DNA of 32,281 nt, taken from positions 1 to 32,281 of the forward strand of contig JADGDY010000044.1 in NCBI GenBank assembly GCA_016744655.1. The letters run 5' to 3'. Origin of the DNA: Bacteroidales bacterium. Its GTDB lineage: Bacteria; Bacteroidota; Bacteroidia; Bacteroidales; UBA12170. Shown in pieces: positions 4,495 through 21,906 of the stretch. The notes below the pieces were generated by a model. The model did no database searches and had not been told where the DNA came from. It saw only the letters and a list, made by a program, of their open reading frames with translations. The stretch's first letter is position 1; each line of letters opens with the position of its first letter. Made by a program: the position numbers and the translations under genes.

Positions 4495-4704
4495 ATGAGC
4501 AAAGAAAAAGTAGTTAAAGAGTATTTTATCAAAAAAGGACTAAAACTAAAATGTGTGATTTGTAAAGAAACATTGTTTTGGACCCGTGAGACTTTAATGA
4601 ATACAAAAGGAATGAGTTTTTTAAACCTTGATTGGGCCAATAAAAGTGCAACCAATTATGTATGCAATAATTGTGGCTATGTCCATTGGTTTTTGGAAAT
4701 CTGA
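4495..4704 (+). CDS. Small zinc-ribbon protein
   Basis: A 69-residue protein with two Cys pairs, CVIC (near 21-24) and CNNC (near 58-61), arranged like a zinc ribbon, ending in GYVHWFLEI. The function is unknown. The start is six bases after the HTH gene, so it is the third gene of the operon. The TGA stop (4702-4704) lies inside the first bases of the inverted-repeat element that starts here, so the element may have supplied the stop codon. The domain looks complete, so any loss from the C-terminus would be small. Confidence 0.75.
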   Translation: MSKEKVVKEYFIKKGLKLKCVICKETLFWTRETLMNTKGMSFLNLDWANKSATNYVCNNCGYVHWFLEI

Positions 4705-4964
4705 GTTCGGCATTAAATTACACCACAGTTTCAGATAATTAGCTCATATATGACACAAATTTTATGGAGAGCTATCGGGATAAAAAATGAAATTTGGGGA
4801 AATAGTGGTGGTAATTATCGAAATCCACTCATGGAAAAGCCAATAATACATCATCTTTTCACTAAAATCCAATTGATATAGTCCGCTATATCTTCTTGAT
4901 TATCAGGTAAAACCAAATGTATTGTTGGCTTTCTGTGGGATGATTTAATAGCCAAACTCAGGTT
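4698..4964. repeat. Inverted-repeat (MITE-like) element, copy 1
   Basis: A ~267-bp non-coding element whose diverged sister lies at 20834-21101 in the same orientation. The ends are inverted repeats: CTGAGTTCGGC at the left and GCCAAACTCAG at the right, extending inward with small gaps to CCACAG (4723-4728) and CTGTGG (4933-4938). Inside, 4836-4849 pairs with 4919-4932 (13 Watson-Crick pairs and one G-T). The centre has a 7-bp hairpin, GATATAG-TCCG-CTATATC, at 4875-4892. No ORF is present. It could be a miniature transposable element or a folded RNA/3'-UTR element. Confidence 0.8.
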
Positions 4965-4971
4965 TGAAGAT

Positions 4972-4979
4972 TAGTTTTG
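4972..4979 (+). promoter_or_regulatory. Candidate -7 box of the NTF2-like gene
   Basis: TAGTTTTG fits TAnnTTTG exactly and lies eight bases beyond the right end of the repeat element. No -33 TTTG is seen at the right spacing; that position falls inside the element's terminal repeat. Confidence 0.45.
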
Positions 4980-5008
4980 TATTTTTACCACAAATAAAAC
5001 CTAAACCT

Positions 5009-5452
5009 ATGAAAAAGTTATTCGTGATCATCAGCTTATTTTTAAGCTTTGGTGTTCTAGCACAAGATTTAGAAAACGATCAAGAATTAATTAAAAATGT
5101 GATTCAAACTGCTTATGTCGAGGGTTTACAGAACGAAGGAAATATTGAGAAAATAGATTCTGGAATTCATCCTGATTTTAATCTTATTGGAATTGATAAA
5201 GGCGATAAAATGTGGAATTTATCCATAAGCGATTGGAAAGCCAAAACAGTTAAAAGACTTGAAGCAGGGGAGTTACCACGAAAAGAAAACCTCATTTCCA
5301 TTAAGTTCCTTGATGTGGATGTAACCGGAACTGCTGCAGTAGCTAAAATTGAGTTTTACGTTGGCGAAAAGCTTACCTATGTGGATTATATTTCACTTTA
5401 CAAGTTTGAAAGTGGATGGAAAATGGTAAATAAGATTTATTACAAGTTTTAA
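5009..5452 (+). CDS. Secreted NTF2-like (lumazine-binding-type) protein
   Basis: A 147-residue protein with a cleavable signal peptide (MKKLFVIISLFLSFGVLAQ) and a single alpha+beta domain resembling the Lumazine_bd_2/SnoaL-like NTF2 family. Visible pieces are IQTAYVEGLQNEGNIEKIDSG, HPDFNLIG, then beta strands ending in DYISLYKFESGWKMVNKIYYKF. No catalytic role can be given. The ATG at 5009 is chosen because it begins the signal peptide; the frame extends to a TTG at 4964 with no leader-like sequence. It is probably monocistronic. Confidence 0.75.
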   Translation: MKKLFVIISLFLSFGVLAQDLENDQELIKNVIQTAYVEGLQNEGNIEKIDSGIHPDFNLIGIDKGDKMWNLSISDWKAKTVKRLEAGELPRKENLISIKFLDVDVTGTAAVAKIEFYVGEKLTYVDYISLYKFESGWKMVNKIYYKF

Positions 5453-20833: not shown

Positions 20834-21101
20834 AACCTCAGTTCGACATTAAATAATGCCACAGTTTCATAGAATTGGCTCATATATGACAGAAATTTAT
20901 GAAGAGCTATCGGGATAACTTAAAGAAATTTCTGGAGATATAGGGGCTAATTATCGAAATCCACTAGTGGAAAAGCTAATAATACATCATCTTTCACTTA
21001 ATAATCATTTAATATAGCCCGCTATAACTTCATGATTATTAATATAAATCTAATGCATTATTAGCTTTCTGTGGCAATTATTTCATAATCGTTCTGAGGT
21101 T
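20834..21101. repeat. Inverted-repeat (MITE-like) element, copy 2
   Basis: Sister of 4698-4964, alignable along the full ~268 bases. Terminal repeats: 20834-20864 (AACCTCAG ... CCACAG) against 21069-21101 (CTGTGG ... CTGAGGTT), about 31 bases with a few mismatches and gaps. Internal arms 20972-20985 and 21055-21068 pair at 13 of 14 positions. An 11-bp perfect stem (20998-21008 with 21032-21042) encloses a TATAG-CCCG-CTATA hairpin (21013-21026). CCACTAGTGG is a further 10-bp palindrome. There is no ORF. Confidence 0.8.
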
Positions 21102-21906
21102 ATAACTGAAGCTTAGTTTGTATCTGGTGTACGTCTTTTTGCAAAGATTTAAGACTTTGAGCTAGGGCCTCCGTTTTCATTTCGTTGGTATCGGGGAGTT
21201 CTCCGCTAATATAATTCACGAATTTCCAAACTTCTTTAACCTCCTGAACGTGGATTTCGTAAGGTTCGTAGAGTGGATTGAGTGAATGGAGTTTGAGAGT
21301 GCCGTCGCTTACTATTTTATTCTCGGCCACTTTAAATACCACGCCATCGTCAATGGTAAGAATGATATAAGCTTGCTTGCTCTTCATGTGAGTCCAGTTT
21401 TGAACGAACTCCGCTGTTACATAAGAACCATCGGGGATGGGAAGCATAGAATCACCACTGATTTGAAAGCTGCGGTATTTCTTTTCCTTAGATAGGAAAG
21501 GAAGCCTAAATGTGGGTAGTATTTTTATATACTCTGGGTCGGCAAAGCCACTGGTATAGCCTGCTTTAGCTTTCTCAGGAACCAATTCTATATTTTCCTC
21601 GTTGTCCTCACTTACTGAAGTTACTAAAACCCTCAATTTGCTTCCTTTAATATATACATCGTAACCTCTTTCCAGTTGGTTGAGTTGATTTTCTGGAAGA
21701 TTCCCCAAATCAATTTTTATTAAAGTATCCACCGATACATTATAGTATTCCGAAAAGCTCACCAAAGCAGACATATTAGGCTGTGCCACTTCATTTTCAT
21801 AACCACTCAAAGTAGAGCGCTTCATATTTAATGATTGCGCAATATCCTCTTGAGTAAAACGCCTTCTCTTTCTTAATAGTTTAATATTGCTGCTAAATAT
21901 TGTCAT
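21100..21906 (-). CDS. XRE-S24 (CI/LexA-like) self-cleaving repressor
   Basis: A 268-residue repressor. The N-terminal HTH (residues 7-62: LLRKRRRFTQEDIAQSLNMK..., STLSGYENEVAQPN) is joined to a C-terminal S24 peptidase domain. The expected Ala-Gly cleavage site is Ala115-Gly116 in EKAKAGYTSG; the catalytic dyad is Ser153 (SGDSMLP) and Lys192 (GVVFKVA). It therefore looks able to cleave itself when RecA is activated, like LexA or CI. A short helical tail follows. It is divergent from dinB over 339 bases, the usual arrangement for a locally controlled damage response. Its stop codon sits at the end of repeat element copy 2. Confidence 0.9.
   Translation of the reverse strand: MTIFSSNIKLLRKRRRFTQEDIAQSLNMKRSTLSGYENEVAQPNMSALVSFSEYYNVSVDTLIKIDLGNLPENQLNQLERGYDVYIKGSKLRVLVTSVSEDNEENIELVPEKAKAGYTSGFADPEYIKILPTFRLPFLSKEKKYRSFQISGDSMLPIPDGSYVTAEFVQNWTHMKSKQAYIILTIDDGVVFKVAENKIVSDGTLKLHSLNPLYEPYEIHVQEVKEVWKFVNYISGELPDTNEMKTEALAQSLKSLQKDVHQIQTKLQL

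Follow-up and report, generated by a model that had tools for sequence, protein, structure and literature searches.

REP/BIME palindromes, with their RAYT (Y1) transposases, consist of two inverted imperfect hairpins with conserved mismatches, and are not known to have terminal repeats or target duplications. REP/BIME pairs, like attC sites, are recognised as single-stranded DNA hairpins. The element described here differs from them in having terminal repeats, 5-bp target duplications, the ends of a DDE-type insertion sequence, and arms of about 100 nt each.

IS982-derived miniature transposons (MITEs) are already known, as are the RNA effects of folding MITE transcripts. MITECca01 of Cardinium is such an IS982-derived MITE and is similar to the present element: it has about 240 bp without a transposase, IS982-like ends, and many copies that are mostly intergenic (PMC9769881). 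In the passages of that paper that deal with MITECca01, its blastn matches are confined to one Cardinium lineage; compared by description, the conserved core fold, covariation and exchange of ends found here do not figure in those passages (PMC9769881). Closer to our host, the printed ends of MITE239 from Porphyromonas gingivalis (Bacteroidales), ACGTGAGTTCGA..., resemble both IS982 ends and the type Ib ends found here, and in the part of the source concerned MITE239 and MITE700 are linked to ISPg3, which is filed under IS5 (PMC4596501). The Correia, ERIC and Coxiella QMITE elements are described, in the relevant parts of a review, as short, A/T-rich and folding when transcribed, with some structured MITEs altering RNase III or RNase E cleavage or yielding small RNAs (PMC10969869). 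These belong to other hosts and have other sequences, and those parts of the review describe neither strand-resolved covariation nor opposed arms (PMC10969869). The open-licence literature yielded no account of the present element, of opposed arms constrained as single strands, or of one core on two types of end.

Anatomy and copies of the element

The window is a stretch of 32,281 nucleotides from a Bacteroidales bacterium, whose own genome (G000) comprises 5.23 Mb in 273 contigs and is 86.8% complete. From its letters alone, an original prediction had singled out two homologous fold-back elements in the same orientation, each with terminal inverted repeats, a pair of inner arms and an apex hairpin. 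Both copies are there, about 80% identical, and contain all of these parts, the apex loop being TCCG in copy 1 and CCCG in copy 2. Their homology does run over the full length, but each boundary had been placed one base too far out; likewise the inner arms are real (they are arm C below), but the terminal stem encloses three folded parts rather than one. The features are as follows.

4495-4704, plus strand: 69-aa reading frame (mechanical ORF), with its stop codon within the left end of copy 1
4698-4964, plus strand: copy 1, whole element; element proper 4699-4963, ATC...GGT
4698-4727, no strand assigned: copy 1, left half of the terminal stem; the outer 12 bp are the IS982-type end
4729-4823, plus strand: copy 1, arm A, constrained on the plus strand; apex GAGCTATCGGGATAAAA at 4769-4785
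4824-4835, no strand assigned: copy 1, small hairpin B, TCCACTCATGGA
4836-4932, minus strand: copy 1, arm C (the inner arms first predicted), constrained on the minus strand; apex 4877-4890
4934-4964, no strand assigned: copy 1, right half of the terminal stem
20834-21101, plus strand: copy 2, whole element; element proper 20835-21100
20834-20863, no strand assigned: copy 2, left half of the terminal stem
20865-20959, plus strand: copy 2, arm A; apex 20904-20921
20960-20971, no strand assigned: copy 2, small hairpin B, TCCACTAGTGGA
20972-21068, minus strand: copy 2, arm C; apex 21013-21026
21070-21101, no strand assigned: copy 2, right half of the terminal stem
21100-21906, minus strand: 268-aa reading frame (mechanical ORF) with the look of a helix-turn-helix protein and with its stop codon at the right boundary of copy 2

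Inside the terminal stem, arm A, small hairpin B and arm C follow one another, and arm C, when read on the minus strand, repeats the plan of arm A: an outer stem, an internal loop, a second stem, UGAAG, a short stem, the loop CGGG, and UCAA. The element is an inverted pair of related hairpin modules around a small hairpin, a relationship that had escaped the original prediction. The loop is CGGG in 24/32 rows for arm A and 21/32 for arm C, and in three of the deviating arm A rows a GC-rich hairpin is nested at this place. Such a GC-rich palindrome (CTTGCCTACCGGCAGGCAGG or similar) sits in the apex of arm A at L156, L195, L196 and L197 (genome G302), and a similar one in arm C at L180, L218 and L219 (G077), as though the apex were a site of insertion for a REP-like element.

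Copy 1 contains no long internal reading frame and no transposase gene. Instead of two copies only, a DNA search of G000 with copy 1 revealed 13 near-full ones of about 268 bp, plus several partial ones. A covariance model (R1), for which 20 copies were aligned on their sequence without structure (alignment A1), matched all 13 across their whole length and also found shortened copies. Internal deletions are seen in L016, L048 and L014, and those of L016 and L048 seem, by eye, to join the repeats TTATCGAA and TAATCGAAC.

When copies are aligned together with their flanks, they end in ACC...GGT followed by short A/T duplications. Among the 48 copies of a model-aligned set (A3), the 5-bp duplication is perfect in 24 and has one mismatch in a further 11, as compared with a frequency of 0.09 for chance agreement between left and right flanks of different copies. 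The duplications around the window copies are imperfect, with one mismatch each (TGGAA/TTGAA for copy 1, TAAAA/TATAA for copy 2). Direct evidence of insertion comes from the sister species G009, in which a region 84% identical to the L003 locus lacks the element and has a single TAATA at the junction. Because its copies are dispersed, share their terminal repeats with IS982, are flanked by target duplications and in one case face an empty site, the element is almost certainly a MITE, a non-autonomous DNA transposon, whose ends are of IS982 type and whose target duplications measure 5 bp. The suggestion of a MITE in the original prediction is thereby borne out, down to the target-site duplications.

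Ends, relatives and spread

The ends of the element, ACCTGAGTTCGA, match those of IS982-family insertion sequences of Bacteroidales. G009 has two matches to the transposase profile PF13612; an IS982 transposase remnant there, recognised by PF13612 and interrupted by one in-frame stop, has TATTA-ACCTGAGTTCGG in front of it. The closest relative of the G009 transposase, at 81% identity, lies at L126 inside a 1041-bp insertion sequence with the ends ACCTGAGTTCGA...TCGAACTCAGGT and a TAATA duplication, and it is an IS982 transposase by NCBIfam NF033520 (275 bits, cut-off 130). A transposase gene with the same terminal repeats, for which the original prediction had proposed to look, is found in this insertion sequence at L126; no insertion sequence with these type I ends was found in G000. 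A PF13612 search gave no match in G000 (86.8% complete), G004, G008 or G014. Of the other IS982 insertion sequences, most of those whose ends could be located carry ACGTGAGTTCGA with duplications that, by eye, span 6 to 8 bp. IS982 matches occur in 14 of 295 Bacteroidales genomes (E <= 1e-40), and the element and an IS982 transposase occur together only in G086 and G212, among element-scanned genomes not all of which had a transposase scan; a close transposase is therefore absent from most assemblies carrying the element. At L005, L013, L160 and L170 the outer terminal repeats co-vary within a single copy (ACCTCAG/CTGAGGT, ACCGGAG/CTCCGGT, ACCTGGG/CCCAGGT), a pattern which suggests that conversion may take place between the two ends.

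The same core is also found on other ends, another feature that had gone unnoticed. In G077, G086, G248, G268 and one G185 copy, it is bounded by AAGGGGACTTCTA...TAGAAGTCCCCTT or AAGGCCACC... (type II), with 4-bp duplications such as TTAA or TATA that are perfect in 6/10 copies and have one mismatch in 3/10 (by eye). An insertion sequence in G077 (L280) has a type II left end and a diverged right end flanking an IS5-family transposase (NF033581, 252.8 bits, cut-off 140), and the link of type II ends to IS5 is made through this single insertion sequence. Three G302 copies have ACGTGAGTT ends and 6- or 7-bp duplications (by eye).

How far has the element travelled? In a DNA search over 60 genomes, it was matched besides G000 in two of the 59 relatives, G008 and G009, both of the same genus. 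Model R1 places it in at least 21 of 393 Bacteroidales genomes including its own, in 15 of 206 genera, and model R2, at E <= 1e-6, in at least 3 of the 395 genomes scanned from the phylum (G000, plus G625 and G557 from other orders of the class). The E-values of both models are rough, and the counts are lower bounds, since any scan of more than 40 genomes was filtered more strictly, with five candidates scored in each genome. With an exact pattern, three loci were retrieved among named genomes, from two MAGs, Bacteroidales GMC9.concoct.117 and Prolixibacteraceae PL24a_bin.47. Viral contigs scanned with one pattern gave 0 matches, and the L172 copy had no match when compared with plasmids and phages.

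Several further elements were also seen. L277 (G557:C39:380654-380986) is a 333-bp distant relative from another order, with a GATATAGCGGACTATATCAA apex and a ACCTGAGTT end. L244 (G014:C35) is compact, about 145 bp in length; it has a degenerate ACCTGAG-type end and what looks by eye like a single arm, with the ATCGGGAT apex on its minus strand. G014 itself holds 212 matches (105 + 107) to the end pattern ACCTSAGTTCGAC with at most one mismatch, against 2 for a reversed control; its MITEs measure about 220-280 bp, along with one of just 33 bp, ACCTGAGTTCGACGTAATTTTTCGAGTTCAGGT, which in L083 has TATTA on its flanks (examples of these loci are L083:1501, L096:1501 and L101-L113).

Folding and strand constraint

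Compared with dinucleotide shuffles, copy 1 folds with z = -8.5 on the plus strand and -5.7 on the minus strand, and with z = -7.1 when folded as DNA. The original prediction had argued for selected folding from two pairs, both of which are real: columns 153/253 are C-G in 19/20 copies and T-A in copy 2, and columns 156/250 are T-A in 19/20, the T-G exception being copy 1. They are joined by many further covarying pairs. In A1 (20 copies), the RNAalifold structure has 81 pairs, of which 22 show changes on both sides, as against 9.8 in shuffles; structures slid along the alignment gave 6 to 13 such pairs, but in 9 to 15 cells versus 71. In A3, both-side changes affect 50/64 predicted pairs, and in 43 of its rows 60/76 pairs on the plus strand and 53/64 on the minus strand, counts that lean towards the R1 structure because A3 was fitted to it, A1 having been aligned by sequence only. 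Sixty tree-simulated alignments without structure average 0.05 such pairs, with a maximum of 3. The core pairing is kept by selection. For these tests A3 was thinned to 43 of its 48 rows (below 97% identity) for the tree null and to 32 of 48 (below 90%) for the strand, motif and energy tests, with a further thinning by hand to 14 rows, one to four per genome, for a repeat of the wobble test.

At the gathering threshold Rfam has nothing for the window, nor for five loci that carry divergent copies; when 4600-5060 was scanned permissively, every match was far below threshold. A kissing interaction between CGGG and CCCG loops was considered and set aside: the two represent one motif seen from the two strands, and inspection by eye shows no CCCG loop in type II copies or in several of type I. 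Could arm A instead owe its conservation to a short encoded peptide? A frame of about 27 codons is open in many A1 copies, but the differences by codon position (0.179, 0.127, 0.159) reveal no third-position excess, 5/18 rows have an internal stop (L001 and L034 left out before the count), and the compensatory pairing would stay unexplained, so that a coding arm is extremely improbable.

Which strand is it, then, that folds? A first count over arm A (GU 36, AC 3) suggested an RNA from one strand of the whole element, a reading ruled out when the minus strand proved to fold as well or better, the plus strand being the more stable in 6/32. This failure led to a test of each arm separately. If pairing has to be kept in one single strand, that strand will accept G-U and reject A-C, the two being exchanged on the other strand. 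Pairs were chosen symmetrically, as the union of the predictions from both strands with at least 60% Watson-Crick. In 32 rows, arm A has GU 36 and AC 8 (p = 2.5e-5) and arm C has GU 11 and AC 52 (p = 1.7e-7), p-values that treat the sequences as independent, which they are not; the terminal stem (24:21) is without clear bias, and hairpin B stands at 3:6. In the 14 hand-thinned rows, the GU:AC ratios are 16:2 for arm A, 1:24 for arm C, 3:10 for the terminal stem (p = 0.09, on the same assumption) and 1:1 for hairpin B. Pairs predicted from both strands alone have little bias (arm A 12:7, arm C 6:8); the bias thus sits, as was to be expected, in pairs that only one strand can form, and this also makes the choice of pairs matter.

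Folding energies go the same way. Arm A is more stable on the plus strand in 31/32 copies (mean -26.7 vs -19.0 kcal/mol) and arm C on the minus strand in 31/32 (-33.4 vs -20.2 kcal/mol), with the terminal stem even between strands (13/31). In the set with IS5-type ends, which lies outside A3, the corresponding counts are 9/9 for arm A and 8/9 for arm C, for nine related rows without shuffle control. Both arms are rich in G on their inward strand (GC skew 0.29 and 0.34), and, as dinucleotide shuffles show, base composition reproduces about half of the strand energy difference; for each arm, 27/32 copies exceed their own shuffle mean. Within each arm, paired and unpaired columns also differ in their GU:AC ratio (p = 2e-6 and 3.6e-8, with rows again counted as independent), and strand-biased C-to-U mutation is not suggested, since the U/A skew is near zero. 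One feature speaks against this strand assignment: in the apex of arm A, a nearly invariant C.A juxtaposition, which fell outside the pair filter, would pair as U-G on the other strand; it is read here as part of the apex motif. Altogether, each arm very probably owes its shape to folding in single-stranded form, on the strand that is read from its own end inwards; this opposed constraint had not been seen in the original prediction.

Imperfect DNA palindromes might imitate such covariation without any function, if template switching corrected one side from the other. The element does have long inverted repeats, and its terminal stem covaries too without clear strand bias, as DNA correction would give; for that stem the process may suffice. 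Correction would, however, remove the C.A mismatch, the bulges and the internal loops, yet all of these are kept across families, and it offers no reason for the opposite wobble biases of the two arms. As the sole cause for the arms it is rejected, and as an account of the element it is improbable.

There remains the nature of the folded molecule, as the G-U argument cannot separate RNA from single-stranded DNA. The arms might be recognised as single-stranded DNA hairpins during replication or transposition, in the manner of REP/BIME or attC: they too are imperfect hairpins, arranged as an inverted pair, in which mismatches and the loop are conserved, G-T is better than A-C in DNA as well, and copy 1 folds well as DNA (see above). 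Yet the element moves with terminal repeats and target duplications, and since its core occurs on ends like those of two families of DDE transposases, the arms do not seem tied to any single enzyme. We regard recognition as DNA as quite unlikely, and consider the selected molecule to be probably RNA.

Gene context and possible roles

Transcription entering from outside would make the inward strand of each arm first, whichever the orientation, and from this a role in cis on read-through transcripts can be proposed, as a possibility and with some doubt. Each copy in the window is met by the 3' end of a reading frame directed towards it: the 69-aa frame stops inside the left end of copy 1, so that its transcript would run into arm A, and the 268-aa frame stops at the right boundary of copy 2, so that its transcript would run into arm C. 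In the proposed mechanism, transcription of an adjacent gene would continue into the element, on whichever side that gene lies, and the first arm that the transcript met would fold into the conserved bulged hairpin with its CGGG loop. The folded arm would then act in cis on its own transcript, most likely limiting the damage done by the insertion, through premature termination or decay of the read-through RNA or, less likely, through processing or insulating. Having two opposed arms would make the device function in either orientation, and a core that is useful whatever moves it might for this reason persist on different transposon ends. Taken as a whole, a MITE with inward-folding arms whose RNA acts in cis on read-through is an explanation that we favour tentatively, with somewhat less than even confidence.

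The wider gene context is neutral. Among 65 copies, 22 and 14 lie between co-directional genes, 11 between convergent and 10 between divergent ones, and 8 have one side unknown. These figures come from a mechanical gene finder and do not distinguish insertion into a gene from insertion between genes. By the same count, 63 element ends face an incoming gene and 59 do not; the frames it used, of at least 90 aa, leave out the 69-aa frame of copy 1. There being no orientation preference, placement lends no support to a read-through role. A recurrent neighbouring gene was also sought around these 65 copies and discarded: three protein matches between loci were obtained, none recurring, one being the same gene in two overlapping loci and the other two weak.

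Alternatively, the element could give rise to two small RNAs, one from each end, each read inward from a promoter in or close to that end and acting in trans, or keeping the element by binding a host or transposase factor. Two convergent RNA genes would fit the opposed inward strand constraint and the conserved loop and bulge motifs. By eye, the stretch that separates the outer 12 bp from the arms has no conserved sequence other than CACAG/CTGTG in type I, so that no common promoter is seen, nor does a terminator-like U run follow hairpin B. Such small RNAs seem unlikely. For the cis-acting reading that we prefer, a working analogy is provided by put and EAR, antitermination RNAs in which a structured RNA acts on the very transcript that carries it. 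They are not MITEs, and the analogy is one of action, with homology checked through the Rfam scans.

The folding of MITE transcripts has often been noted; here the evidence for selection on the fold is quantitative and strand-resolved, with opposite wobble biases within one element. The wobble test, which asks on which strand each hairpin tolerates G-U, is applicable to other MITE families. The presence of one core on two types of end suggests that the core of a MITE can outlive the transposase that first moved it. It is even conceivable, if rather unlikely, that a transposon-borne RNA module is the real unit of selection, made up of two inverted hairpins that each serve the transcripts arriving from their own side; it would have spread in Bacteroidia on the ends of the unrelated IS982 and IS5 systems and would act in cis, either to make insertions tolerable or to reprogram read-through. 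If the arms do act on read-through RNA, the element would be a mobile RNA device able to function whichever way round it lies, and this would explain how such elements sit between genes at a tolerable cost.
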